IMG/VR virus record: IMGVR_UViG_3300028581_000026
Location: 1 to 64,000 of that record
From: a virus
Direction: 5' to 3' (one strand)
Length of the DNA: 64,000 bases
The notes under the pieces were generated by a model, which did not search any database, was not told where the DNA came from, and saw only the letters and a list, made by a program, of their open reading frames with translations. How positions within the stretch are numbered: the first letter of the stretch is position 1; each line of letters starts with the position of its first letter. Shown here piece by piece: positions 745 to 56,999 of this stretch. The position numbers were made by a program, and so were the translations under genes.

Positions 745-1392
745 TCATTTCCATTTTGCTTGAGGTAATAATTTTTTTCCGAATTCGATTAGTTTATCTT
801 TAACTTTGTTCATTTCTTTTTTTGATTTAAATCTGTCTTTTCTTTCGTCAGCCCATTCATCAATAACATCATCCATATACATTTTTCTTGTTTTGGCTTG
901 GGTATAAAAACCTTGGATATATGCTGGTAGTTCTCTTGGTGTTAATACTTCTTGTGCAAATGAGTTATACGCCTTATTTCTAACATCTTTTTCCGGATTT
1001 TCGGTTTGGGATATGTGTTCGATTTCGTGTCTGATTGTATCTTTTAATTCCGCCAATAATTTATTTATTTGATTACCTTTAAATAGTTTTGGGTTAATAT
1101 CAATTGTAAAATCAATAATATTAAGGTAATTTTCATCATCAAATTCATAACCACCACTGATATCAAATGCTATTTCTGAATCAGTTTTAGTTAGATGTAA
1201 TTCAACGGTAAATACTTCTTCATCAAATGATTCGTGAATATACTCATTTTCCCAGTCAATTTCTTCATCATCACTTTTGAGGAAGGATTTAATTTCTTTC
1301 ATTAAGTCCATACTGATTTCTCTTGTGACTTGACTATATCTTCCCTCAGTGATGAGTTGTTTAAGTTGTTGTTCTGATATTATTATTTTCAT
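745..1392 (-). CDS. Tagged zincin-like metalloprotease
   Basis: 215 residues. The N-terminus MKIIISEQQLKQLITE is one of the recurrent tags, with ITE then Gly as a possible prohead-protease site. The zinc signature HEIEH is at residues 122-126 and a downstream RELPAY segment near 152-157 could give the third ligand, as in many phage zincins. The substrate is unknown; an injected protease or a self-processing virion protein are both possible. Its start overlaps the stop of 1389-2354 (ATGA coupling). Metal-protease fold: likely. Activity: inferred. Confidence 0.65.
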   Translation of the reverse strand: MKIIISEQQLKQLITEGRYSQVTREISMDLMKEIKSFLKSDDEEIDWENEYIHESFDEEVFTVELHLTKTDSEIAFDISGGYEFDDENYLNIIDFTIDINPKLFKGNQINKLLAELKDTIRHEIEHISQTENPEKDVRNKAYNSFAQEVLTPRELPAYIQGFYTQAKTRKMYMDDVIDEWADERKDRFKSKKEMNKVKDKLIEFGKKLLPQAKWK

Positions 1393-2354
1393 TTTAAGTT
1401 TGATTCTAAGTAGTTAATATCTTCTTCATTTGGATTTTGTATTTCAAATGGGAATTCTTCTAATCCTAGATTAAATGCTGCCAATAGTCGGTGTCTTCCA
1501 TCTGAAATTCCAATTTTTGGTTCTTTGTTTTTAACTTTTTGTCCACTATCATCATATCCCCAATTTTCAACATATAATGCGGTTGGTTGATATGCTTCAA
1601 CATCTGTATTTTTAAGATATTCCATTGCTTTCTCCAGTCTATTTCCAATTCTTACACCTTGATTTCTGATATCAAAACTTGAACCCATATCTTTACCGAC
1701 TCTTTCTAATACTTTTTGTGGTGAAAGATAAATAACTTCTGAGTTGTTACTTCTTTTTACAATTGTTTTTGAACCCCAGTCAATATTGAATTTCTTTGAT
1801 GTTTTGGTTGTTTTATTTGAGGTGATGTCGTTGTAAGTATTTTCTAGTAATTGGTTAATGTATTTAATTAATTCAAACATTGAATTATTATCTTTGTATA
1901 TTAATTGATAATAATTGTTAATATTTGATTTAAGAGTTTCTTTATCTGAGGTTGATGTATTTTTAATTTCATTTATAGATTTTTCAATTTGGTAATATAA
2001 CTTAACCATATAATTGAAATAATCATAGAACTTATTGATTCCTGTTCTATCTATATCCTCTTCCTTTACTATAATTCGTTTAAGCCTAGATTCATTGAGT
2101 AACCCAAGTGTTGATTCACAATACTTTGCATTAATGAATATTTGTCTAAATAATACATCTAAACCTTTTAAAAATTCTTCAATAAAACTTAATATATTTT
2201 GTTTATTATTTTTGGGACTTTCATTGAATATGGTTTTTAATTTGTTCATTGCATCATCTATATGTTTATGATTTGCAATTAGATAGTGTAACTCTTTATC
2301 CAATTTGGTTGTTTCTTCCCTCAATATTCTTCTTATTGTTTGTTTTAGGCTCAT
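1389..2354 (-). CDS. Tagged protein with C-terminal ParB-like DGRHR motif
   Basis: 321 residues. It begins MSLKQTIRRILREE, the commonest tag variant here. The middle (about 40-190) is helical and Lys/Asn-rich with no recognised domain. The C-terminal third carries an ALYVEN segment and then GISDGRHRLLAAF, the ParB/Srx-type nucleotide-binding signature. The start overlaps the stop of the zinc-ribbon gene upstream. A head-packaged ParB-like nuclease or CTPase-like module is an inference. Confidence 0.65.
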   Translation of the reverse strand: MSLKQTIRRILREETTKLDKELHYLIANHKHIDDAMNKLKTIFNESPKNNKQNILSFIEEFLKGLDVLFRQIFINAKYCESTLGLLNESRLKRIIVKEEDIDRTGINKFYDYFNYMVKLYYQIEKSINEIKNTSTSDKETLKSNINNYYQLIYKDNNSMFELIKYINQLLENTYNDITSNKTTKTSKKFNIDWGSKTIVKRSNNSEVIYLSPQKVLERVGKDMGSSFDIRNQGVRIGNRLEKAMEYLKNTDVEAYQPTALYVENWGYDDSGQKVKNKEPKIGISDGRHRLLAAFNLGLEEFPFEIQNPNEEDINYLESNLK

Positions 2355-2611
2355 TATTTTGTTTTTTTAACACAATTAGGGTATCTTTTTCCGAACATTG
2401 TTTTCATTCCTTTTTGGGTATAACCTTTCCAACATTTTTCGGTTAATTCTGTTTTTGAATTATCGTGACCACACTTATGACATAAATATGGGTCATCCCC
2501 ACCATCAGATAATTTCCAAGAATGATTACATTGACCACAGATTACTTTTTCATCTTCTGTGACTAAGTTCATCATTTCTTGAATTCTTTGTATTTGTTCT
2601 TGTAGGTTCAT
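2354..2611 (-). CDS. Small zinc-ribbon protein with tag-like N-terminus
   Basis: 85 residues. The helix MNLQEQIQRIQEMMNLVTE ends in V-T-E. A zinc ribbon follows (CGQCNHSW at about 26-33, CHKCGHDN at about 43-50), then a Lys-rich tail with CWKGYTQKGMK and YPNCVKK. The ribbon plus a Cys-Trp-x-Gly-Tyr/PNCV tail also occurs in virion-associated proteins of marine T4-like phages, which supports a structural or packaged role. It is coupled to 1389-2354. Confidence 0.6.
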   Translation of the reverse strand: MNLQEQIQRIQEMMNLVTEDEKVICGQCNHSWKLSDGGDDPYLCHKCGHDNSKTELTEKCWKGYTQKGMKTMFGKRYPNCVKKTK

Positions 2612-2615
2612 AATT

Positions 2616-3686
2616 TTAAAAATCCATTACATCAAAGTGAATTAATTCACCATCTTTTATTCCCATATTACCGCCGTGTAAATCTGCGGTTGGGACAACA
2701 TTATCTTCCAATTTTAATAAAAGTTCTTCATATTTTTCAATATAATCAACAATTTCACTATAATCTAAGTCATATGGTTCTAGTTCATCTTTTGGTCTAG
2801 GATTTGACAATCTTTCAGATACTATATCTATTATTTCATCTCTTTCATCATCATCACCATTGAATAAGTCCCAAAAAGTACTATCTGAATATCTAGCTTC
2901 TTCATAAAATAATACGGTATATACGGTTTCATCTTTTTCTGATAATAATTCAACTTCATCCATTAAGATTGCATACACTTTTGATTTTGGGTAATATTTT
3001 ACATCATAGTAATGGATAACACCAGGAACAGTTCCTCCCAATTTTTTTTGTATATTTATTACTTTTTTGATTCCTCTAATTTCATCATCATTATTTGTTA
3101 GTTTGAGGATTTTGTCATCATCAACCATAAATGCCATTCCGAAATGACCTTCACCGGCATATTTAATTTTATTTATATTGAAATCATTTTTGAGGATTTT
3201 TATTGTTTCACCTAGGTTATCACCAATACTTTGATGTATCTTTCCAACACCTCTTGGTTCATTTGATTTTACATATTTGTCAAAATCTTTTTGTAGTTTT
3301 TCAGGATTGGATAAGTCACCATAATCGGTAAAATCTTCAGATAGATTTTTGGCTTGATAAACCCATTTGATATATTTGGGGTCATTTTTTATTCTATCTC
3401 CATATATCATTTTTAATAATTCTGGTGTGTTTGGTATTATCCAAGTATCGGTGTCAAAATTTATTAATCTATCGTGAAAAGAATCAATCTCTGTGAAGTA
3501 TTTCTTAAATGGATTATATTTTTGGTATAATTCTTCTTTGGTTATTTCCAATGTGTCAAGCATGTTATCCAACCCCATTGAATGTATTAAGGACATTAGT
3601 CCCATTGTTTCAATAAGTTTTTCCATTTTGGACTTTGGGGTTTTTTCAGATTCTTCCCTCAGTATTCTTCTAATTAAGTTTCTCAT
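2616..3686 (-). CDS. Tagged protein kinase-like protein
   Basis: 356 residues starting MRNLIRRILREE. After a helical region shared with 4342-4812 (KMEKLIETMGL), a compact kinase-like domain follows: Gly-rich loop AGEGHFGMAF (177-186), Lys195 in ILKLT, hinge ILMDEVELL (240-248), catalytic-loop-like TADLHGGN with Asp335 and Asn340, and metal-binding-type FDVMDF at the very C-terminus. The lobe past the DFG-equivalent is missing, as in minimal atypical or phage kinases. By analogy with T7 kinase and T4 Alt it may modify host proteins, possibly on injection if the tag targets it to the head. Confidence 0.7.
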   Translation of the reverse strand: MRNLIRRILREESEKTPKSKMEKLIETMGLMSLIHSMGLDNMLDTLEITKEELYQKYNPFKKYFTEIDSFHDRLINFDTDTWIIPNTPELLKMIYGDRIKNDPKYIKWVYQAKNLSEDFTDYGDLSNPEKLQKDFDKYVKSNEPRGVGKIHQSIGDNLGETIKILKNDFNINKIKYAGEGHFGMAFMVDDDKILKLTNNDDEIRGIKKVINIQKKLGGTVPGVIHYYDVKYYPKSKVYAILMDEVELLSEKDETVYTVLFYEEARYSDSTFWDLFNGDDDERDEIIDIVSERLSNPRPKDELEPYDLDYSEIVDYIEKYEELLLKLEDNVVPTADLHGGNMGIKDGELIHFDVMDF

Positions 3687-3700
3687 TTTATTATATTTAA

Positions 3701-4345
3701 CTAAAACAAATCTTCTATTTTGTCCATATGTTTTTTGACTATTGGTAAATCCACTATATCTGAATATTCCATACCCTTTCTTTTCATCTGTTGTATTTGT
3801 TTATGTAATGTTTTCATCATATTTCTTATTGAGTGCCCCATAGACGGATAATTCAAAATAATGTCACTTAATTGGTAATGTTGTTTTGGAAGATTCAACT
3901 CGTTCCCTAATTTTTTAACCCATTCCATTCCATAATTATGAGCATCTATTTCCATTTCCCAATAAAGTTTATATAGTTCTTCAAAATCTTCAATTTCACC
4001 TGACATTGGGTTTTTTTGTTTTAATTTACCCATTTGTATTTCGTGTTGTATTTCGTGGAATAATATATAAATAAATTCGGATATTGTATTAAAACTTGTT
4101 GGTGAACAAATTATTATAAAGTTTTTTGTTCTCACTCCCTTAAATCCTGTCTCACAATTGTTTAATACTTTGATATTAAAACCTTCTTCATTTATATAGT
4201 TTTTTATCTTTTCAAAAACATCTTCAATTTTATCTTCATAACTTTTTGGTGTTATTGATTTAAAATGTTTTAGTATAGTATCAAAATTACTAGTCTTAGA
4301 TAAATCTTCCCTCAGTATTCTTCTAATTGTTTCTTTTAGTTTCAT
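3701..4345 (-). CDS. Tagged zincin-like metalloprotease, second copy
   Basis: 214 residues beginning MKLKETIRRILRED. FHEIQHEIQ places an HExxH motif at 97-101, and EMEIDAH (about 131-136) supplies the usual downstream E/D-x-x-A-H. The sequence is otherwise unlike the zincin at 745-1392. It ends with TAG; reading through would add only a few residues before TGA. The start overlaps the stop of 4342-4812 and the gene lies directly upstream of the kinase gene, so metalloprotease and kinase are co-transcribed. Confidence 0.65.
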   Translation of the reverse strand: MKLKETIRRILREDLSKTSNFDTILKHFKSITPKSYEDKIEDVFEKIKNYINEEGFNIKVLNNCETGFKGVRTKNFIIICSPTSFNTISEFIYILFHEIQHEIQMGKLKQKNPMSGEIEDFEELYKLYWEMEIDAHNYGMEWVKKLGNELNLPKQHYQLSDIILNYPSMGHSIRNMMKTLHKQIQQMKRKGMEYSDIVDLPIVKKHMDKIEDLF

Positions 4346-4812
4346 TCTAAATTATGAGTTATTTGGAATTCAACACCTTTTGGTATCATTGGTTTAAGGT
4401 AGGAAAAAACAATTATACTACTAATTTCATTTTGGACTTCCCACCACCAGTATTGTTGCCATAAATCAGAGTCCCATAAATCAAATTCTCCATCATCTAA
4501 AATTACAGAACCATCTAATATTTTAACATATATATCCCAAATATCATCAGTATAAACAATGTCTTTAATAACAAAATTAAAATCATATGGCCCTACTTCA
4601 CTTTTATTTAATTTTTTTGTTGAAACTTCTTTGTCAAGGATGAAGTCTTTAAATAAATCAATTGCTGTGGTATCTAATATATCCAAAATATTATCCAAAC
4701 CAACTGATTTAACTGTGGATATAATCCCAAGTTTTTCAATAAGTTTTTCCATCTTAGATTTTGGGACATTCTCGTTTTCTTCCCTCAGTATTTTTCTAAT
4801 TAAGTTTCGCAT
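4342..4812 (-). CDS. Tagged protein, N-terminal paralogue of the kinase
   Basis: The start at 4812 was chosen because MRNLIRKILREE matches the other tags; an upstream ATG at 4827 would add five hydrophobic residues. Residues 1-55 (tag, Lys-Ser-Lys-Met-Glu-Lys linker, then a helix with SVGLDNILDILD) closely match the kinase N-terminus, but the remaining 100 residues are acidic and aromatic (LWQQYWWWEV) with no kinase motifs. This suggests domain shuffling behind a common N-terminal cassette. First gene of the run that ends at 541. Confidence 0.6.
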   Translation of the reverse strand: MRNLIRKILREENENVPKSKMEKLIEKLGIISTVKSVGLDNILDILDTTAIDLFKDFILDKEVSTKKLNKSEVGPYDFNFVIKDIVYTDDIWDIYVKILDGSVILDDGEFDLWDSDLWQQYWWWEVQNEISSIIVFSYLKPMIPKGVEFQITHNLE

Positions 4813-4832
4813 AAATATAAATATCATAAATA

Positions 4833-9856: not shown

Positions 9857-10222
9857 ATGAAAAGAATTGTTAGATTAACTGAACAAGATTTGGTTAGATT
9901 GGTGAAGAGGGTAATCAATGAAGATGACGATGAGAGTAAATTAATTGATTTATTAAGAAGTAAGAATATTAATAATGTTAAACTTGGATTAATGCTTTAT
10001 GATTCTCAGGATATTGGTGTTAAAAAGGATGTGGTTGATAAAGCTAAAGCAAATGTGTTAAGTATGTATCTAATTAATTTATCAGATTTAGAGGTAAATA
10101 ATTTTGCTGATGAACTTGGTTTTGGTGATTGGTTTAAAGGTAAAGATATTGACAGTTTAACCAAAAAAATTGTGAGATTTGGACATTGGGATAAAATAAA
10201 GATAAAAATATTATATTCGTGA
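9857..10222 (+). CDS. Tagged helical protein
   Basis: 121 residues on the plus strand, starting MKRIVRLTEQDLVRLVKRVINE, the second class of the recurrent N-terminal tag, followed directly by Asp-Asp. The rest is helical, charged and without recognised motifs. It is translationally coupled to 10219-10590 (the TGA overlaps a GTG start). Likely a head-packaged or scaffold-type protein if the tag hypothesis holds. Confidence 0.6.
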   Translation: MKRIVRLTEQDLVRLVKRVINEDDDESKLIDLLRSKNINNVKLGLMLYDSQDIGVKKDVVDKAKANVLSMYLINLSDLEVNNFADELGFGDWFKGKDIDSLTKKIVRFGHWDKIKIKILYS

Positions 10223-23453: not shown

Positions 23454-24287
23454 TCAATGAGTCCCTTCCATATTCTTAAATATATGTGCTATCACATCCA
23501 CCGTCCATCCATTCCCCAACATTTTATACCTCTGAGTATTTGATAACCCACTCGTATAATTTAGTGGTAATGTTTGCATTAACTCACAATCTTGTGGTGA
23601 GTATTTATAAATCTGTCCCAATTCATTTTTACAAAATGAATTAACTTGTCCCTTATACATTGTCGCGGTTAAACAAGATGCTTTCTCTTTGTAGTGTTGG
23701 ACAACATCCTTTCTAATCTTTGGTCCCCCATAAAATAATAAGTCCAAGTAGTTCGGATATTTGTCTTTAAATTCTGGACTGATAACATCACATATTCTTA
23801 AACCCAAATCTTTTGGTTGTGTTATGTTTGGAATATTTGTCCAATATAATCTTGGTCTATTCTGACAAGAGACCAATTTACTATTTATCTGAATTGGTTT
23901 AACACCCATTTGTTCAGATATAATATCTTGCCACTCCTGTTTCATTACAACATTTTCAAGTAGAAAATATTTTGGATTACATTCATTTTTTATTCTAACA
24001 AACTCAAAGAATAATTTACTCCTTGGGTCATCAAAGTTCAATCCCTTTCCAACATTTGAAAATCCTTGGCAAGGTGACCCACCAATTATAAGGTGGATTG
24101 GTGGTAAGTCAGAACCTTTAATTTGTGTAACATCCCCAAGTTGAATTGTGTTGGGGAAATTCTTTTGTGTTATTTTGATTGCATAGGGATCAACTTCACT
24201 TGAGAAATAATTTTCATATTTTATTCCTATTTTATTAAGTGCGACTTGTCCACAGCTAACCCCATCGAAAAGACTTAGTACATTCAT
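23454..24287 (-). CDS. C5-cytosine DNA methyltransferase
   Basis: 277 residues. Motif I SLFDGVSCGQVAL, motif IV GGSPCQGFS with catalytic Cys73, motif VI LLENV, motif VIII-like QNRPRLYWTN and a C-terminal LGNGWTVDVIAH (motif X). This is the compact phage form. It transfers a methyl group to C5 of cytosine, presumably to protect phage DNA. The target sequence cannot be read. Separated from the paralogue at 24925 by a third, divergent enzyme. Confidence 0.9.
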   Translation of the reverse strand: MNVLSLFDGVSCGQVALNKIGIKYENYFSSEVDPYAIKITQKNFPNTIQLGDVTQIKGSDLPPIHLIIGGSPCQGFSNVGKGLNFDDPRSKLFFEFVRIKNECNPKYFLLENVVMKQEWQDIISEQMGVKPIQINSKLVSCQNRPRLYWTNIPNITQPKDLGLRICDVISPEFKDKYPNYLDLLFYGGPKIRKDVVQHYKEKASCLTATMYKGQVNSFCKNELGQIYKYSPQDCELMQTLPLNYTSGLSNTQRYKMLGNGWTVDVIAHIFKNMEGTH

Positions 24288-24307
24288 TATTTAATATTTT
24301 TATAAAA

Positions 24308-24928
24308 TTAGTTGATTTTATTTGAAATGTCAATTTGTCTGATAACACAATCCAAGATATATTTCCCAACATTGGGATCAACACAATTTCTTATTATTTG
24401 GTCTTTTCTATGTTTTAGTTTAAACACCCTTAAATCAAAATATCCTTTGTCAGACATACCTCTTTCGTTATGGGTTAAACCATCTTTAATTTCAATTTTG
24501 GGAATATCAATGTTTGTCCAAAACAAATGTCTTCCCAATTTTATAGTTGGCTGAACAAGTGTCTCATAGTATGGTTTAACATTTTCAACAACGAATTTTA
24601 TATTGGTGTTTTTTGTATAATTTTGTAAGAAAATAATCTCAGCCCATAATTTCATATCTGGCATAACTGAATCGTAACTTCCACTTTTACTTGCCATCAT
24701 TCTAACTTTGCTATGACTTTGACAAGGTGGACTAGACCAAATAAAATCAAAGTTTCTCCAATTCTTGGCAAGGTATTCGTGAGCATCACCAACAATTACA
24801 TTATCATTCGGAAAAAAATGTTTATATACATTTGCAATTTCTTCATTATACTCAATGGCTGTTACTTCAACATTTTCCCAATATTTTCTATTTCCCCCAA
24901 TTCCAGCATATAGATTTAATACATTCAT
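24308..24928 (-). CDS. DNA cytosine methyltransferase, divergent type
   Basis: 206 residues, shorter than the neighbours. NLYAGIGGNRKYW (motif I), VGDAHEYL, DFIWSSPPCQSHS with Cys69 in the PCQ motif, FVVENVKPYY (ENV) and HLFWTNI. It lacks an obvious large target-recognition domain and ends soon after the core, as in minimal phage enzymes. The gene overlaps the upstream methyltransferase by 4 bp. Confidence 0.8.
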   Translation of the reverse strand: MNVLNLYAGIGGNRKYWENVEVTAIEYNEEIANVYKHFFPNDNVIVGDAHEYLAKNWRNFDFIWSSPPCQSHSKVRMMASKSGSYDSVMPDMKLWAEIIFLQNYTKNTNIKFVVENVKPYYETLVQPTIKLGRHLFWTNIDIPKIEIKDGLTHNERGMSDKGYFDLRVFKLKHRKDQIIRNCVDPNVGKYILDCVIRQIDISNKIN

Positions 24929-25986
24929 TGTTCAATATTTTTTAATATGTGTGCAATAACGTCCACCGTCCATCCATTTCCCAACATTTTTCTCGCTTGA
25001 GTTGATGTGACAACATTAGTATAGTTATCAGGAATTGTTTGTAGTCGTTCCATTTCAATTAAATGTAGTTTTCTATATCTCCAAGTATTATCAACAATAT
25101 AATCCAATGGTGACTCTACTGTAACCAAACAATTACCTTTACCATTTTTCTGCTGTGCATACATCTTATGTTCTTTACTCCTAGGTGTTGAGTCCTTACC
25201 AGTTTCCTGTCTTATCTTTCTCCTCATATCTTTACCCTCTTGAGTTCTTGTTTCATAAAATGAAATTGGTGTGTTATCTGACAAATTAACAACAATTTTT
25301 TTACTATTAATTGCCTTGAAAGTTATTGCTAATTCATTCTGTTCAAAATCTATACTAGACCTTAAATTTGAAATTTTTTCATCAATTGATAACCCCATCG
25401 GTTGTTCTTCAACTATATCTTTCAACATAATTTTCTTATCAATAGGTTGGGTTACATTGGGAATGTTTGTCCAATACAATCTTCTTCTGTTTTGTGCTGA
25501 AACAAGTGCTGAATTGATTTCAATAGGTTTGACTCCCAAGACATCAGAAATCATATTTTCCCACTTCTTTAACATCTTAACGTTTTCTAGTAGAAAATAT
25601 TTTGGTTTAACTTCTTTCAGTATTCTAACATATTCCCAAAATAGATAAGATTGTCCTTGGAACTCAAATCCATCATTTTTCAATCTTAGATATTCATCCA
25701 AAGTAGTAATCTCATAATTGTCTTTTGTTGCCATACCTTTCATATTACCAGCAAAAGACAAGTTTTGACAAGGTGAACCACCAAATAAAATGTCTATTGC
25801 AGGTAGATTACTACTAGTTATTTCTTTTATGTCCCCCAATTGAATTGTATTGGGGTAATTGTGTTGTGTTACTTTAATAGCATACTTATCCACTTCTGAG
25901 GCAAAGTAATTATCATACTTTATCCCAGCACGATTCAATGCAACTTGGCCACAACTAATTCCATCAAACAGACTTAATACATTCAT
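24925..25986 (-). CDS. C5-cytosine DNA methyltransferase, paralogue of 23454
   Basis: 353 residues. The first 60 residues are nearly identical in pattern to 23454-24287 (SLFDGISCGQVALNRAGIKY). Catalytic Cys73 is in GGSPCQNLS, LLENVKML is motif VI, AQNRRRLYWTN motif VIII and MLGNGWTVDVIAHIL motif X. It is longer by about 75 residues, mostly in the target-recognition region (about 200-290), so the two enzymes probably methylate different sites. Coupled by overlap with DUF3310 upstream. Confidence 0.9.
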   Translation of the reverse strand: MNVLSLFDGISCGQVALNRAGIKYDNYFASEVDKYAIKVTQHNYPNTIQLGDIKEITSSNLPAIDILFGGSPCQNLSFAGNMKGMATKDNYEITTLDEYLRLKNDGFEFQGQSYLFWEYVRILKEVKPKYFLLENVKMLKKWENMISDVLGVKPIEINSALVSAQNRRRLYWTNIPNVTQPIDKKIMLKDIVEEQPMGLSIDEKISNLRSSIDFEQNELAITFKAINSKKIVVNLSDNTPISFYETRTQEGKDMRRKIRQETGKDSTPRSKEHKMYAQQKNGKGNCLVTVESPLDYIVDNTWRYRKLHLIEMERLQTIPDNYTNVVTSTQARKMLGNGWTVDVIAHILKNIEQ

Positions 25987-27193: not shown

Positions 27194-28540
27194 TTAATTA
27201 ATTCTCATTACAACAAATCTATGTCTTTGACCATCCGAGGTTGTAACCATTTGTTCATCATAACTCGACAAAATTCTAATTCCATCAATATCTACCATCT
27301 CTTTAGCTATTTCATCAATATCCACATAATATTTCAAATCAGCACCCATATTTGTTAGATAATCAATTGGGCTTTCACTATCAACCAATGAATCAACTTT
27401 ATCTTCAATCATTTCATCTGTTGGTTCGGTGTCAGGTTCAATACCATCAAGTTCCTCTTGAGCATTATCAATCAGTTCTTGAATTTCATCATATTTTTCA
27501 GAATATTCATCTGGGTCTTCAATTTCATCTTCCAAATTACTTTGTTGTTCTTCCAATTGACTAATATAATTTTCCAATTGTTCTTTTCTTTCTTCTTGTT
27601 CTTCTGTTAACTCAAAGTCATCAGAGTCAAACCAAGATTCTGGACTATCACGGATACTATCTTCATAATGTTCTCTCATTTCATCTCTTACTTGGTCTTC
27701 ATCAATGTATTGTGCTAAATCAACACCTTCAAGTCCAAGTTCTATCGTATATTGTAAAGCAGATTTTTCAGCGTCAGCCATAGTTCCAACAGCATATTCT
27801 TTCCCTCTATGTCCAACAACTTCAAACATACTCATCTCATAGTGTCTATATTTCATTGGTATGATAGAATATACATCGGCAACATCGTTAGTCAAATCAT
27901 CAATTTCTTCTTGTAGATTATCAATTTCATTATATAATTCTTCCCTTTCTTCGGAGTCTGGGTCTAATTCAGCACCTTGTTGTACTAATTCTTCAATTCT
28001 TTCCTTTAAAGATTCAATTTCTTCTTTCGTATCTTCATCCATTTCATCTAGTTCTCCTTCACTAACCAAATATTGGTATAAGGCATTGACTATTAGTCCT
28101 TCGTCATCTATATCAGGATTATCCAAATCCCATTCACCACTTTCTTTTCTTTCTAGGGCTAATTCCTTTTTTTCTTGTTCCTCTCGTGCAATCCTTCGTT
28201 TTTCTATGGGTGTACCCCAATCAGTAACATAACCTTTTACAATGGTTTTACCAATGTCAGATATCTTGGTATGTGATACATCTAAATTACCATAAATGTA
28301 AGCAACATTACCCAACTCAGTCATTTCTGGCATATCACTCAATTTTAAATTACCTGTTATGTAAAGTGGTTTTCCTTTGAATTTTTTAATATAAGTTGCA
28401 TCGGCTTGATAATACGCCATCTTCATTAATGTTCTATATTCATCTGGTGCCATTATATAATACTCATAATCCTCATTTTGTTCTTTCAACAATTTGATTA
28501 ACCTTTTGAATTGTTCTTCGTTTAATATTATTTTTCTCAT
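27194..28540 (-). CDS. Tagged LRR-like/coiled-coil protein
   Basis: 448 residues. MRKIILNEEQFKRLIKLLKEQ is a tag-like N-terminus. Residues about 50-110 hold two or three short LRR-like units (LYITGNLKLSDMPEM, VAYIYGNLDVSHTKISDIG), then WGTPIEKRRIAREEQ and WDLDNPDIDDEGLIVNALY. Two long acidic coiled coils follow (about 165-215 and 300-360, Glu/Gln/Leu rich) and a C-terminal domain ending VTTSDGQRHRFVVM. The GTPIEK...WDLDN linker after LRR units is familiar from LRR proteins of marine phages. Likely virion-associated. Confidence 0.65.
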   Translation of the reverse strand: MRKIILNEEQFKRLIKLLKEQNEDYEYYIMAPDEYRTLMKMAYYQADATYIKKFKGKPLYITGNLKLSDMPEMTELGNVAYIYGNLDVSHTKISDIGKTIVKGYVTDWGTPIEKRRIAREEQEKKELALERKESGEWDLDNPDIDDEGLIVNALYQYLVSEGELDEMDEDTKEEIESLKERIEELVQQGAELDPDSEEREELYNEIDNLQEEIDDLTNDVADVYSIIPMKYRHYEMSMFEVVGHRGKEYAVGTMADAEKSALQYTIELGLEGVDLAQYIDEDQVRDEMREHYEDSIRDSPESWFDSDDFELTEEQEERKEQLENYISQLEEQQSNLEDEIEDPDEYSEKYDEIQELIDNAQEELDGIEPDTEPTDEMIEDKVDSLVDSESPIDYLTNMGADLKYYVDIDEIAKEMVDIDGIRILSSYDEQMVTTSDGQRHRFVVMRIN

Positions 28541-32244: not shown

Positions 32245-32561
32245 TATTTGTTTAATTTTATAAGATTATGTAATGTAAATTCGGCAACATTCAATCTGTC
32301 TACCGTAGTAAAAATAAATATATTAATACCCCCTTTTATGTAAATAAGAATTCCACTTGAGTCATATTCGACTAGTCTGTCCACCTCAACAATCTTATAG
32401 TCAATGACTTCCTTATTCACATATATAAGATATGATTTGTTAAGGAATTTCTCAATTTTTTCCTTATCAATTTTTTCATTTTCAAGATATAAAATTGATG
32501 GTTCAACCTTATATCTTTCCTTGAAAATTCTGGTTATTCGTTCATCAAAAGAGTAGTTCAT
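32244..32561 (-). CDS. Hypothetical protein
   Basis: 105 residues with an alpha/beta pattern (FLNKSYLIYVNKEVIDYKIV, SSGILIYIKGGINIFIFTTV). No family recognised. Overlaps both neighbours (ATG coupling with the thioredoxin gene; 17 bp with 32545-34260). Confidence 0.55.
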   Translation of the reverse strand: MNYSFDERITRIFKERYKVEPSILYLENEKIDKEKIEKFLNKSYLIYVNKEVIDYKIVEVDRLVEYDSSGILIYIKGGINIFIFTTVDRLNVAEFTLHNLIKLNK

Positions 32562-34260
32562 CTATAAAGTTTGTATCTGGTGTTCTAATTAAGTTAAAGG
32601 ATGGTTTATATATTTCAATTGAGCTATTATCAAATCTCAATGTTCTATTTATTTTTTTCCCTCTTTGTCCTGGTGTCATATATATTTCCTTAAGGTCATT
32701 AAAGATAATTTTCCCTTCAAGTTTCACCCCTTTATATTCAACAGAATAATTTGGTAGTTCAAATATATTATTATCCATTATATATTTAATCCGTTTATCC
32801 ATTTCTTCCAAATATGAATCCCAAGTTATGTCCAATTGTTTATTAAACCTACCCAAACTTTGAACTCTAACCAATTCAATATTATCTTCATCTCCATATA
32901 TTTTGTACTCCACAGAAGCTCTTTCCTCCCCTTCTATGTCACCAACCCTAATGGATATAATTATTGATTCTGGACGATTGTTGTAAGTTCTAACACAATT
33001 TGATTGGACAATACTTTCCATTGAATATTCTTGAAATGTTGTTAATAAGACTGGATAATAGTTATCCATTGGTTCTTCAACAATTTCCTTAAATCTTGGG
33101 TTATACATTCTTTGATATCTTGGATCTTTGAATTTGGCAACCTTCTCACTCCAAATGAAATGTTCTGAATTAAATTCGGCATATGTTTTTGATTTCCAAG
33201 TTACAGGTTCAAATTGACTAAGTTTATCTCTGAATTCCAAATGGTCAATGAATGTATTATGATTGATTGAACCATTTATCATAAGTTTGAATATATCAAA
33301 ACAATTTAATAACTCATTTTTGGAAAATGAATACATATAATACGGATAATAGAGATGTTCTATACCAGGCATTGGGGGTGATTCAACAATATATTTAATC
33401 ACACTATCCTCCTTGGATAATATAAAATTATTACCAAATAATTCTAAAGCAAATCTCAAATTATATATTCCCCTAACTGTTGTAACTGTATGTAGAACCC
33501 TTTTAATCTTATCACCATTCAATCTATTAACACTCATATAAGCATCAATGAATTTGAACTTATGTTTCTTATATATTTTCTTGGTTATTTGGGGGTATGA
33601 TGGTTTAAATATATGCCAATTGTTTGGTAATTTAACCCCAATTCCATCCAAATAATGTTTATATATTCTGATGTCAGGACTAACAATTGAATTGTCTAGA
33701 TTGGGGATATGTTCCAAAAATAAGTCAAAGCACTTATTGATTTCTTTTGTATTTAAATCAACTTCTTCAAAAGTTTGTGGTTTAATATTATTTGGTTTAA
33801 AATATTGGAATATAACCTTGGAGAGAGTTGAAAGTGGGGTTAAATACCAAGTATTTTTATGGATAGTATTAAATTTCTTTTTTCTTCGTATTGTATTATT
33901 ACCTGTGTATATTTCATTTTTCTTGTAATTGTAAGTTACAAATTTAATGAACATATGTTTATTAAAATACTTTTGTCCCACCATTCTATGATTACTATAA
34001 AAATAGAACTTGAGTGAGACCTTATCTTCTGAGGTTTCTACTTTAATCCTATATCTATCGTGTCTACATTCAGCAAATTGATTTCCGTAATTACTAACAA
34101 AAGATTTGTCATCAAATAATGTTTCCAATAAACTGTCAAAAATATATTCCGGCTGAAAAAAGAATGGGTTGTCTTGTTTCGGTTTGTCTATTATGTCACA
34201 ATAATTCTTATATGTTTTTGTTAGATATTTTTCAATCTTATATTCGTATATTACCCCCAT
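32545..34260 (-). CDS. PcfJ-like protein
   Basis: 571 residues. The diagnostic part is residues about 430-460: QEYSMESIVQSNCVRTYNNR then PESIIISIRVGD, matching the PcfJ core (Q...NCV..Y......S.I.S.R) followed by an ASVEYKI strand. The N-terminal 250 residues are basic and Tyr-rich with NTWYLTPLSTLSKVIFQYFK. PcfJ-like proteins occur on conjugative plasmids and in many phages; their role is not established. First gene of the redox operon. Confidence 0.65.
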   Translation of the reverse strand: MGVIYEYKIEKYLTKTYKNYCDIIDKPKQDNPFFFQPEYIFDSLLETLFDDKSFVSNYGNQFAECRHDRYRIKVETSEDKVSLKFYFYSNHRMVGQKYFNKHMFIKFVTYNYKKNEIYTGNNTIRRKKKFNTIHKNTWYLTPLSTLSKVIFQYFKPNNIKPQTFEEVDLNTKEINKCFDLFLEHIPNLDNSIVSPDIRIYKHYLDGIGVKLPNNWHIFKPSYPQITKKIYKKHKFKFIDAYMSVNRLNGDKIKRVLHTVTTVRGIYNLRFALELFGNNFILSKEDSVIKYIVESPPMPGIEHLYYPYYMYSFSKNELLNCFDIFKLMINGSINHNTFIDHLEFRDKLSQFEPVTWKSKTYAEFNSEHFIWSEKVAKFKDPRYQRMYNPRFKEIVEEPMDNYYPVLLTTFQEYSMESIVQSNCVRTYNNRPESIIISIRVGDIEGEERASVEYKIYGDEDNIELVRVQSLGRFNKQLDITWDSYLEEMDKRIKYIMDNNIFELPNYSVEYKGVKLEGKIIFNDLKEIYMTPGQRGKKINRTLRFDNSSIEIYKPSFNLIRTPDTNFIDELLF

Positions 34261-36046: not shown

Positions 36047-37609
36047 TTATTGTACATAAAACATTCCATCTTTTCTTTCAATCAATTTCTCTTTCAAAAC
36101 TGGTGGTATCATAGGATTACTACCTCTAAGTACTATAAAATTCAATTCTTCCAATTCACTGATACTTTCTGGTAGTTGTTTCACTAGGGGACAATTAAGA
36201 ATAGAAAGAAATGTCAAGTTTTTCAAGTTTGAAACTGTATTTGGGATATTTTTAGCTGAAGCGTCAAATACCAATGAAGTTAGTTCGGTAAATCTACCAA
36301 TAGAATCTGGTATTTCAAAAGCTCTGTTTTGGTCTTTTGTACTGTTAATAAGTTGTAAAATTTTAATATTAGCAGGTAATTTATCTAACAAAGCTTCAAA
36401 ACCAAATATTTCAAAAATTCCTTTACTAGTTGGGTAGGTAATGATTGCTTCCTCATTACTACTCATAACATATTTTTTAAATAACATCTCAAATCCCTCT
36501 CTGAATATTGGTAATCCATCAAATATTTCTCTCATTATACCATTCTGACCAAAATATTTACCCAAATCAATTTGGCGGTCTAATAAATCCATAAATTGTT
36601 CTTTAATGAAATTAAATTGGAATCTATTTTTTGGTAATCCCGACTTTGGTGATACATTACCACCGTCATTTGTTGGTAAAATAACATACAATGGGGAATC
36701 TATAGCACATTTTGTTTTAACATTTTCATAAGGTGTTGTGTAATAATCAAAGTTACTTACATATCCTTTTTCACCTTTTAATAGAGCGTTACCTGGTGCC
36801 GAAGTACACCAATTAGACTCACCATCATTTTTCAATTGACTTCCACCATAAAATACTGCCGCGTGTCTAGCCAATGGATTTTTAGGATTAATTTCAACAA
36901 CAACCCAATCTTTACCTTGATAAACTATCGGACAATCAAATTTACTATAAGGATTATCACCTTGAACTTTTTCAGCTTCTTTCCTAACCTGTTTATTTAT
37001 ATTTTTTTCCGGTATTTGATAATTCATACAGACATCACCCAAATCTTTTGGTGTTAATTTATTGATGTCTTTTTTATCTAAAGGTAATAAATCTTTAAAT
37101 TTCTTTAATTGATGGAATTTAATTAAATCAGTTTTAAGACTAGGTAAATCCTCAATAAAAAGTCTACGATATTCTGTAACTGCTCTTTTGTATTCTGGTG
37201 ATTTGGGGTCTAGTTCTTTTATATTACTTGGTAATTTTGCGGCATAATAAGATAATATCCAATTTGCATATTCACCAACTTTCACTTTTTCCATATCATC
37301 TATACTAGCACCATCAATATCAAAATTAGATGGCTCAGTTCCAGCTATACAAGGTGATGTTGCACAAGGTATTGTTGTTGGGTCGGAAAATATGATTTGT
37401 TTTAATACTTGAAATGGTGTTATTTGTACTTGTTCCAATTCATTTGTTTGGTCATTAAGTTTAGTCATTGTACTACCAGCCAATTTACCTTTTGCATTTG
37501 GATTTTTTCTGAGGTCTTCTTCTGATGGTATTACCAATTTATCATACAACATCTTGAATCTAGATGTATTTTCAAGTATTAATCGTTTTAGTATTGATTT
37601 GAATCTCAT
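36047..37609 (-). CDS. Tagged protein with central WCTSAPG domain and C-terminal LRR
   Basis: 520 residues. MRFKSILKRLILEN is a tag-like start ending I-L-E. Residues about 235-330 contain DWVVVEINPKNPLARHAAVF, SNWCTSAPGNALL and SPLYVILPTNDGG, a fold with Cys-Thr-Ser like that of some PcfJ/HCGR-type phage proteins. Residues about 425-510 are four LRR units (IPDSIGRFTELTSL, VSNLKNLTFLSILNC, PESISELEELNFIVL). LRRs plus an enzyme-like domain behind a tag suggest a targeted effector; the activity is unknown. Confidence 0.65.
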   Translation of the reverse strand: MRFKSILKRLILENTSRFKMLYDKLVIPSEEDLRKNPNAKGKLAGSTMTKLNDQTNELEQVQITPFQVLKQIIFSDPTTIPCATSPCIAGTEPSNFDIDGASIDDMEKVKVGEYANWILSYYAAKLPSNIKELDPKSPEYKRAVTEYRRLFIEDLPSLKTDLIKFHQLKKFKDLLPLDKKDINKLTPKDLGDVCMNYQIPEKNINKQVRKEAEKVQGDNPYSKFDCPIVYQGKDWVVVEINPKNPLARHAAVFYGGSQLKNDGESNWCTSAPGNALLKGEKGYVSNFDYYTTPYENVKTKCAIDSPLYVILPTNDGGNVSPKSGLPKNRFQFNFIKEQFMDLLDRQIDLGKYFGQNGIMREIFDGLPIFREGFEMLFKKYVMSSNEEAIITYPTSKGIFEIFGFEALLDKLPANIKILQLINSTKDQNRAFEIPDSIGRFTELTSLVFDASAKNIPNTVSNLKNLTFLSILNCPLVKQLPESISELEELNFIVLRGSNPMIPPVLKEKLIERKDGMFYVQ

Positions 37610-51973: not shown

Positions 51974-52204
51974 CTCTTTAATTATAACCTCAGATTCGGT
52001 GATAATAACAACCCTGGCACCACACGAAAGGAGGGGTTTATCATTTCCACCATATATAACTTTACTCGGACCTAATATCTCAACTTCATTACAATAGGTA
52101 TTCTTCTTACCTTGTTTTACGGTTATAACAGGTAAGTTTGTTCCTTTTGTTTTATTGGAACGGATGTGATGTTGATTGACATGGATATAGGTTTTCATTA
52201 CCAA
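51959..52204 (-). CDS. Conserved phage protein, HVNQHxIRxN family
   Basis: 81 residues: MKTYIHVNQHHIRSNKTKGT, PVITVKQGKKNTYCNEVEIL, GPSKVIYGGNDKPLLSCGAR. This small family is widespread in marine and freshwater T4-like phages and has no known function. The preferred start may be the second Met (52198). It overlaps the tagged gene upstream by 7 bp. Confidence 0.7.
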   Translation of the reverse strand: MVMKTYIHVNQHHIRSNKTKGTNLPVITVKQGKKNTYCNEVEILGPSKVIYGGNDKPLLSCGARVVIITESEVIIKEIPPQ

Positions 52205-52569
52205 TTACGATCTGTTTTGTTGCGAATAAGTTCAATTTCTTTGATGCGTAATCTTATAGATGTTATTTGTTTGAAGTAGAATTCAATTTCAGAATAAATT
52301 GGCTCAAAATTATAGTGAGACATAAGTCCTTCAGAATAAGTATTTACTGTAGCAACTAAACCTCTTTCATTTTCACCCAAATCAATTACATCTATTTTTA
52401 CAATAGAATCAATCCAATCAGTAATATCTTCATTATATTCATTTGGATTATCATTTTCTTCAATATCCGTTTTAATGGTATTGAGTATTTCATTAATTGT
52501 TTTTTCAACCTTTCTTCTTTGTTTCTCGCTGGTTTGTTCTTCTAATATTTTTCTGATAATATCTCTCAT
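52198..52569 (-). CDS. Tagged hypothetical protein
   Basis: 123 residues starting MRDIIRKILEEQTSEKQRRK, a class I tag with a helical continuation. The rest is acidic alpha/beta (WIDSIVKIDVIDLGENERGL, YSEIEFYFKQITSIRLRIKE). No recognised domain. Confidence 0.6.
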   Translation of the reverse strand: MRDIIRKILEEQTSEKQRRKVEKTINEILNTIKTDIEENDNPNEYNEDITDWIDSIVKIDVIDLGENERGLVATVNTYSEGLMSHYNFEPIYSEIEFYFKQITSIRLRIKEIELIRNKTDRNW

Positions 52570-55995: not shown

Positions 55996-56403
55996 TTATT
56001 TATTTTCCAATATGGTGTCAGCGACAATTGAATAGTAGAAGTCAGACAATTCATCATCTTCCATTTCTTTTATATCATCAAACCCTAAAGCATGTAATAA
56101 ATTTGATATATCGTAATAATAGTATGGGATATCAATTGAACTGGGAAGTCCTTGTAACCATTCAATTAATGCTTTCTTTTGCCCATATCTTTTGATTGCC
56201 CAACCATACTCATCCAAAAATACCTCAAAAAGTTGGGTGAATTTGTTATCAACTTTCCTTTTGAAGTCATATCCTTCAAAACTAATTCTATCTTTCAAGA
56301 ATTTTTTTAATTGGTCGTAGGGGTCATCTTCTCTAATCTCATTGATTGTTCTTTTGATTAGTTTGGTTAAATCAGATTCGGTTAATCTTCTAATTCTTTT
56401 CAT
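55996..56403 (-). CDS. Tagged helical protein
   Basis: 135 residues from ATG 56403: MKRIRRLTESDLTKLIKRTI then NE, a class II tag. The body is helical and aromatic (VFLDEYGWAIKRYGQKKALI, ISNLLHALGFDDIKEMEDDE). An in-frame ATG upstream at 56427 is less likely since it precedes the tag. No recognised domain. Confidence 0.6.
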   Translation of the reverse strand: MKRIRRLTESDLTKLIKRTINEIREDDPYDQLKKFLKDRISFEGYDFKRKVDNKFTQLFEVFLDEYGWAIKRYGQKKALIEWLQGLPSSIDIPYYYYDISNLLHALGFDDIKEMEDDELSDFYYSIVADTILENK

Positions 56404-56423
56404 AATTGTTTTAATTATAAATA

Positions 56424-56999
56424 TCACAAGTTTTGACTTATGTTTGAACCTTTCATATAAACAGCACCAGTATTTGATACCAATTGTTCAATCTTATTAT
56501 TGAGTTCAGTTATTATCTTATCCTTATCACCCATTTCCCTTCTCAATTTCATCAAGGTTTCTTGTAACATAACCATCTTTTCATTTGGTTTTTCAACCTC
56601 CTTGATTACCTCAACCTGGACAATTTTTTCCACTATCTTCTCCACTTCCACCGGTACTTGGACAATTTTTTCTACTATAACCTCATTTGTGGAAAATATT
56701 TTCTGCTCAATTGGGACTTCTTTGATTATTTCAACAATCTTCTCAACCTCTTTAATGACCTCGATTGGGATCTCTTTAATCGTCTCTTTTTCCACATATT
56801 TAATAACCTCAATCGGAATTTCTTTCTCAACATATTCAATAATTTTTTCTGTGTTATTACCAATTAAACCATATCTCTCAATATCATATCCCTTCTTAAA
56901 ACATTTCTGAAAGAACTTATCAACATCTTCAATGTTATTTAACTTACAATAATCAGTTAAATCCTTTTGGTTTTGTTTATTGAGGGTTAGTTTGTTCAT
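56424..56999 (-). CDS. Coiled-coil protein with Glu-Lys-Ile-Val repeats
   Basis: 191 residues. The N-terminal 60 residues are globular (KDLTDYCKLNNIEDVDKFFQ). Residues about 60-140 are a degenerate repeat of (V/I)-E-K-(E/I)-(I/V)-P-(I/V)-E-V, forming stiff beta/coil segments; then a coiled coil (MLQETLMKLRREMGDKDKII) and a short tail. Similar Val-Glu-Lys-Ile-Val stretches occur in many phage proteins of unknown role. It overlaps the start of the Dam gene's end by 23 bp. Confidence 0.6.
   Translation of the reverse strand: MNKLTLNKQNQKDLTDYCKLNNIEDVDKFFQKCFKKGYDIERYGLIGNNTEKIIEYVEKEIPIEVIKYVEKETIKEIPIEVIKEVEKIVEIIKEVPIEQKIFSTNEVIVEKIVQVPVEVEKIVEKIVQVEVIKEVEKPNEKMVMLQETLMKLRREMGDKDKIITELNNKIEQLVSNTGAVYMKGSNISQNL

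Follow-up and report, generated by a model that had tools for sequence, protein, structure and literature searches.

A predicted minimal kinase behind an exchangeable, putatively capsid-targeting N-terminal tag in an IMG/VR virus fragment

The window, a stretch of 64,000 nucleotides from a large uncultured phage (positions 1 to 64,000 of the IMG/VR virus record IMGVR_UViG_3300028581_000026, itself an 86,553-base fragment), carries a small kinase-like gene together with neighbouring genes whose products begin with short, recurrent N-terminal tags. The coordinates of the kinase gene, its catalytic residues, its candidate cleavage sites and its neighbours are listed in Table 1. The first part of the extra segment at residues 13-114 of the kinase is common to the neighbour at 4342-4827 (query residues 1-59, 58% identity).

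Table 1. Kinase gene, its subdivisions and the tagged neighbours, in window coordinates.
Feature	Position	Strand	Remarks
Mini-kinase gene	2616..3686	minus	complete open ORF, 356 aa, begins MRNLIRRILREE
N-terminal tag A, residues 1-12 (MRNLIRRILREE), proposed capsid-targeting sequence	3651..3686	minus	recurs in viral ORFs; replaced in orthologs
L9-R10-E11, candidate prohead-protease site within tag A	3654..3662	minus	fits the T4 gp21 rule L/I-x-E (PMC9026906)
Residues 13-114, extra mostly helical segment	3345..3650	minus	peculiar to the window kinase
L115-S116-E117, second candidate L-x-E site	3336..3344	minus	directly at the junction to the conserved body
Conserved kinase body, residues 118-356	2619..3335	minus	AlphaFold2 model covers residues 112-356
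Gly-rich loop GEGHFG, residues 178-183	3138..3155	minus	G178, G180, G183 invariant
K195 (KILKLT), ATP-anchoring Lys of beta-3	3102..3104	minus	invariant; strand 81-86 of the core model
E202, candidate alphaC Glu	3081..3083	minus	only invariant Glu starting the helix after beta-3
Catalytic loop DLHGGNMG with D335 and N340	2661..2684	minus	D335, H337, G338, N340, G342 invariant
D352 (HFDVMDF), DFG-equivalent Asp	2631..2633	minus	invariant; then only VMDF and stop
Neighbour with tag C (MKIIISEQQLKQLITEG)	745..1392	minus	HExxH-type RHEIEH; homolog of the C-terminal part of Immuto gp088
Neighbour with tag A	1389..2354	minus	DGRHRLLAA, ParB-like motif; L007 ortholog has tag B
Neighbour with tag B (MNLQEQIQRIQEMMNLVTED)	2354..2611	minus	zinc-ribbon and a module found in several PHROGs
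Neighbour with tag A	3701..4345	minus	HEIQH metalloprotease-like motif
Neighbour with tag A	4342..4827	minus	N-terminal segment same as in the kinase

Tag-like starts were also observed at five further sites of the window, namely 9857-10222, 27194-28540 and 36047-37609 (MKRIVRLTEQDLVRLVKRVINE, MRKIILNEEQFKRLIKLLKE and MRFKSILKRLILE, respectively), 52198-52569 (MRDIIRKILEE) and 55996-56427 (MKRIRRLTESDLTKLIKRTINE), so the candidate cargo set is not limited to one cluster. Elsewhere, a repetitive leucine-rich-like ORF (ESVGGDLYL... repeats) lies at the window edge (1-450). At 23454-25986, a gene starting MNVLNLYAGIGG lies between two others that resemble each other and start like DNA-cytosine methyltransferases (MNVLSLFDG[IV]SCGQ).

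The kinase was compared with its orthologs in a seven-member alignment comprising the window kinase and those of loci L007, L164, L166, L030, L176 and L169, with 32-69% identity to the window kinase; for the body alone, identity to the six orthologs' bodies was 45-72%, L169 excepted (32%). G178, G180, G183, K195, D335, N340 and D352 were invariant in all seven, and invariance at 32-69% identity indicates that the kinase motif is no chance motif. The first-pass annotation had placed the Gly-loop, Lys195, Asp335, Asn340 and Asp352 in this protein and had it end directly after the DFG-equivalent; the residues are indeed found at these positions, and the stop follows four residues past D352, as it does in the close orthologs, which terminate in HFDVMDF, HFDVMAF or HFDIMKVD. 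The candidate alphaC glutamate, E202, is residue 91 of the AlphaFold2 core model described below and lies within its helix 89-105.

Past D352 the window kinase has neither an activation segment nor counterparts of helices alphaF-alphaI, the post-DFG region that characterises a canonical Ser/Thr or Tyr kinase. The same annotation had suggested that the usual C-lobe helices are missing or rearranged; absence holds for these post-D352 helices but not for those ahead of the catalytic loop: between hinge and catalytic loop the core model contains helices 139-150, 159-164, 168-183 and 198-217, so the C-lobe is not wholly missing. In a wider catalytic-loop scan, unrelated small phage kinase-like ORFs (L157-L190) were also observed to stop shortly past the DFG-equivalent Asp, with tails of 4-48 residues, commonly about 10. 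Short ends are thus not unique to the window kinase family, and C-terminal minimisation may be common among phage kinases. The truncation after the DFG-equivalent and the lack of a Pfam domain would also be expected of a pseudokinase or a decaying gene fragment, but the ORFs are intact, and the catalytic residues and the short C-terminus are kept across orthologs at 32-72% identity; decay is highly improbable, the least probable of the explanations considered here.

In database searches, no Pfam domain or kinase-model match was obtained for any of the seven kinase members, and no significant PHROG match for the window kinase, while its relatives gave weak matches to the T7-type kinase family phrog_15752 (E 0.08-0.15). 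Searches of PDB sequences with phmmer and profiles gave nothing significant, the best kinase being APH(2'')-Id (E 0.36), and the kinase was found neither by tblastn in 50,697 phage records nor by the GTDB scan. AlphaFold2 on the single sequence yielded an unusable model (pLDDT 34), and only the seven-sequence alignment gave a usable one, covering the core (residues 112-356) with a pLDDT of 84.3 and a pTM of 0.81. The core model runs from a five-stranded N-lobe through the helix after beta-3, several helices and the catalytic loop to a final hairpin.

Foldseek matches of the core model were almost all kinases. Among PDB structures, APH(2'') aminoglycoside phosphotransferases came out on top, with E-values from 6e-6 and TM-scores of only 0.3-0.38 at about 15% identity; in the viral library, an uncultured marine phage protein was the best match (E 1.6e-10), followed by protein kinases of T7-like phages (E 2e-7). 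The low TM-scores to PDB kinases suggest that the global lobe arrangement may differ. The protein combines the elements of the protein-kinase-like (PKL) fold, namely a Gly-rich loop, an anchoring Lys, the catalytic Asp and Asn, a metal-binding Asp and, as modelled and with low TM-scores, two lobes. The earlier proposal of a protein kinase-like protein, which was to be checked by structure prediction, is therefore sustained by the invariant catalytic residues and by a predicted fold matching aminoglycoside kinases and kinases of the T7 gp0.7 type. We consider the kinase fold well supported, and the overall lobe arrangement, as modelled, less so.

These matches also set the protein apart from its nearest structural counterparts. 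Unlike APH(2''), the window kinase has no post-DFG helical region and stands in a phage context. The T7 gp0.7-type kinases (including JSS1_004) share the kinase fold and rank high in the viral fold search, but the window kinase does not match their family model significantly by sequence (best E to phrog_15752 about 0.08) and has nothing beyond the kinase core; they are products of early genes made after entry and have a C-terminal shut-off domain, whereas the window kinase stops at the DFG-equivalent and begins with a head-type tag. T7-type phage kinases disarm defence proteins or shut off host transcription by phosphorylation after entry (PMC12345140).

If the delivered kinase phosphorylated a small molecule, such as a nucleotide signal, a sugar or an antibiotic-like compound, and not proteins, the dominance of aminoglycoside phosphotransferases among the PDB fold matches would be expected, as would the absence of the activation segment and alphaF-alphaI, which bind the peptide substrate in eukaryote-like kinases. 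However, the high-ranking viral models include annotated protein kinases of T7-like phages, the weak PHROG matches of the relatives are to phrog_15752, and substrate is not decided by fold similarity. A small-molecule substrate is the foremost of the alternatives, though itself unlikely; a host protein seems the most likely substrate, the APH-like fold match notwithstanding.

A profile search with the kinase retrieved only 4 of 49 viral contigs, three of them already known as carriers, and the isolated Flavobacterium phage Immuto. Immuto gp093 (NC_055915.1 103366-103806, annotated as hypothetical) matched the profile with an E-value of 1e-10; it starts MISIYNILKE-V, thus with an L-x-E start, ends in KIIDV at the DFG-equivalent as the window kinase does, and is encoded in a gene block, upstream of terminase, gp20, gp21 and gp23, whose members have similar starts. 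Unlike the 356-residue window kinase it has only 146 residues, and its SIKMDN aligns with the window DLHGGN, the catalytic-loop Asp not being evident, so gp093 may be more degenerate. In the same phage, gp088 (NC_055915.1 107131-109854, annotated as NadR) contains a C-terminal homolog of the window protein at 745-1392 with the RHEIEH motif conserved.

A second distant homolog, of 217 aa (E 5e-9), was found in the 484-kb genome of the huge phage LR756508, which encodes gp21. It too has a short L/I-x-E start, MVKLKDLLSE-A, and closes an array of proteins with FKNLL-E or LKDLL-E starts. This array (LR756508.1 329494-337887, L261) consists of tandem paralogs starting like MKFKNLLFE or MVKLKDLLSE, with the mini-kinase last, and the paralogs contain RGTD...RKDRKPRDT motifs that look ADP-ribosyltransferase-like by eye and have no Pfam match. 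In the same genome, numerous small proteins encoded around its capsid gene (L258, LR756508.1 150001-200000) carry one more tag class, MRLSERKLRRIVKEEISRVLRE and variants.

The tag was then considered apart from the kinase. Searched for as a degenerate DNA pattern, IRRILREE was found in 83 IMG/VR viral stretches, and the tag A motif was present in 172 ORFs, at residue 7 in 96 of them and at residue 5 in 17. In 257 Gb of prokaryote genomes the pattern matched 11 stretches, of which 3 start a 41-aa ORF, 3 fall inside longer ORFs and 5 have no matching ORF, and tag A starts no ORF longer than 41 aa there. Tblastn with the short tag peptides gave no match in isolated phages, probably owing to a sensitivity limit, and in full-text searches of the open-licence literature the tag was not named in any paper.

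Kinase bodies that are orthologous stand behind at least five different tags: tag A in the window (MRNLIRRILREE, followed by about 100 extra residues and then by the body after NLSE), tag B in L007 (MKLHEQINRIQEMMDKITNE), tag C in L164 and L166 (MKIIITESQYKILNE and MKIIISESQYKILNE), tag D in L030 and L176 (MTNRTIIKQILNQFLTE and MGNRNIIKKVLNEFLTE) and tag E in L169 (MKYLKTFES). The tag A of the ParB-like neighbour is likewise replaced by tag B in L007. Among the ORFs of the loci analysed, more than one tag class occurred in 9 of 29 tagged sequence families, one of the nine being large and possibly chained via shared domains.

Conservation of the tag extends to its DNA. Tag A genes open with the 42 nt ATG AAC CTA CAA GAA TCC ATA AGA AGA ATA TTA AGG GAA GAA, with wobble positions kept far beyond codon usage (tag A/B genes of L013-L092; window 1389-4827), and the first 15 nt are common to tag B and tag A genes. 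In tag A/B genes, AAC was used in 79% (background 24%), CTA in 67-79% (7%), TCC in 84% (7%) and AGG in 90% (15%). Part of the tag similarity therefore reflects recent DNA copying and not protein function. To judge from these codons, the spread of the tags seems to be recent and to have taken place at the DNA level, perhaps through gene conversion at gene starts, which fits a mobile address label.

The T4 head offers a model for such a label. T4 Alt is a head-packaged ADP-ribosyltransferase. In T4, IPII and IPIII start MKTYQEFIAE-A, IPI has ITE19-A, and gp23 has FLTE-A, with its site at LTE65-A. The T4 protease gp21 cleaves after L/I-x-E, and as a targeting signal 10 residues of IPIII are sufficient (PMC9026906); in Alt, the processed sites are ITE-6 and LTE-619 (PMC5694885). 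Ends of this type recur in the window kinase as LRE11 in tag A and LSE117 at the body junction, and in the LSE117 column the orthologs have LNE, LTE or TNE just ahead of the body. Since LSE117 marks precisely the onset of the conserved body, the first 117 residues could all be propeptide. The L007 kinase fits L/I-x-E only upstream of the body junction, and tag E (MKYLKTFE) does not fit it.

The ends of tags B, C and F played no part in the definition of these classes. [L/I]-x-E was found shortly after the tag in 41 of 53 tag-B, 39 of 50 tag-C and 14 of 14 tag-F proteins, at a near-fixed distance; these shares of 77-100% compare with a background of 11-15% in the rest of the same proteins. Because proteins that share a tag class are related and not independent, binomial p-values for this enrichment overstate its significance. 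Separate tag classes thus converge on [L/I]-x-E ends.

A gp21-type protease (PF03420) was present in 18 of 25 tag-A contigs, and a gp23-type capsid gene (PF07068) in the same 18; the tag-A contigs without them are 106-224 kb long and may be fragments. PF03420 occurred in 1 of 14 unrelated contigs, used as a rough control and taken from a GEGxFGxAF scan whose returns were mostly unrelated; most of the 14 are short, which makes the control a weak one. The gp23-type capsid proteins of tag-bearing contigs have [FHY]LINE-A or a close variant aligned at the T4 gp23 cleavage site. Both gp21 and gp23 were absent from the 86.5-kb window fragment and from the searched pieces of other kinase-bearing contigs; the tie of these contigs to the gp21/gp23 group runs through shared genes, for example the window gene at 32545-34260, which has homologs at 33-39% identity in five contigs with both genes (G003, G009, G011, G014 and G016) and at 46% in the kinase-bearing G063. 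In another contig, a head module includes a tag-C gene (L226:7105-8061), flanked by those for the gp21-type protease and the scaffold. A phage-nucleus import signal was set aside as a role for the tag, the head genes being T4-type.

Several readings of the tag follow from these data. The kinase might act in the infected cell after its expression, the tags having another role (docking to phage proteins, stability or translation start) or being passive remnants of recombinogenic 5' DNA; tag A/B DNA conserved beyond codon usage is what a recombination-spread segment would show, and the window fragment is without head genes. Yet one kinase carries five tags, three tag classes converge on L/I-x-E ends, the tags accompany genomes with gp21 and gp23, and a tag-C gene sits inside the head module at L226:7105-8061, and such post-expression action is rather unlikely. 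Phosphorylation of phage head proteins during assembly, with no host-directed effector, would profit from a location in the prohead, which would give access to scaffold and capsid; it is very unlikely, however, as the kinase is rare in the profile search described above, and sporadic occurrence suits accessory effectors better than assembly factors. The packaging-like character that the first-pass annotation gave to the tag thus finds circumstantial backing in tag exchange, the common [L/I]-x-E end, the co-occurrence with gp21 and gp23 and the restriction to viral contigs.

The reading we favour, with modest confidence, is that a cleavable capsid-targeting tag brings the kinase into the prohead, and that the kinase is then ejected into the host and phosphorylates host molecules there. 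A T4-type N-terminal tag would dock the newly made kinase to the prohead core, where a gp21-type prohead protease would cut after [L/I]-x-E, at LRE11 and perhaps at LSE117; the matured kinase would stay with the DNA, enter the next host at injection and phosphorylate host molecules ahead of phage gene expression. We infer packaging, cleavage, injection, kinase activity and the kind of substrate alike. More broadly, it seems an evenly balanced proposition that large T4-type phages load a large and fast-changing repertoire of enzymes, minimal kinases included, into the head for injection by means of N-terminal capsid-targeting tags that are interchangeable and have spread as short DNA cassettes, and that the tag alone predicts a phage's injected proteins.

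Head-packaged host-modifying enzymes are an established theme, and the ART-PolyVal class, which one tag-A protein matches with an E-value of 6e-6, below the family cut-off, includes head-packaged effectors (PMC9503650). Most of the tagged proteins that look ADP-ribosyltransferase-like by eye gave no Pfam match. As with the T4 capsid-targeting sequence of IPI, IPII, IPIII and Alt, which is cut by gp21, a short N-terminal leader ending in [L/I]-x-E is found here on unrelated proteins, and the relatives' genomes encode a gp21-type protease and a gp23-type capsid. Unlike the single T4 sequence, several distinct and interchangeable tag classes occur here on a very large cargo repertoire, targeting and cleavage are predicted, and the tag DNA is itself conserved and dispersed. 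The proposed route and timing are those of T4 Alt, an enzyme carried in the head and injected to modify the host, but fold and chemistry are here those of a kinase rather than an ADP-ribosyltransferase, and packaging is predicted from sequence. The earlier comparison with T4 Alt for delivery and with the T7 kinase for fold is reasonable, given that Alt is cut at ITE-6 and that the best viral fold matches include T7 gp0.7-type kinases.

Phage kinase folds and capsid-targeting sequences are both already known. In the open-licence literature we found no description of a kinase behind a capsid-targeting tag or of several interchangeable tags on one body, and to our knowledge no other kinase has been predicted to be delivered by such a tag. 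With orthologs carrying swapped tags and with the isolated phage Immuto at hand, the idea is directly testable. Tag exchange among close relatives points to a modular delivery system. If the proposal is true, the kinase would act ahead of any phage gene expression, and a readable N-terminal code would mark head-carried proteins, so that a list of injected effectors could be drawn up from sequence alone, also for genomes beyond the reach of culture.
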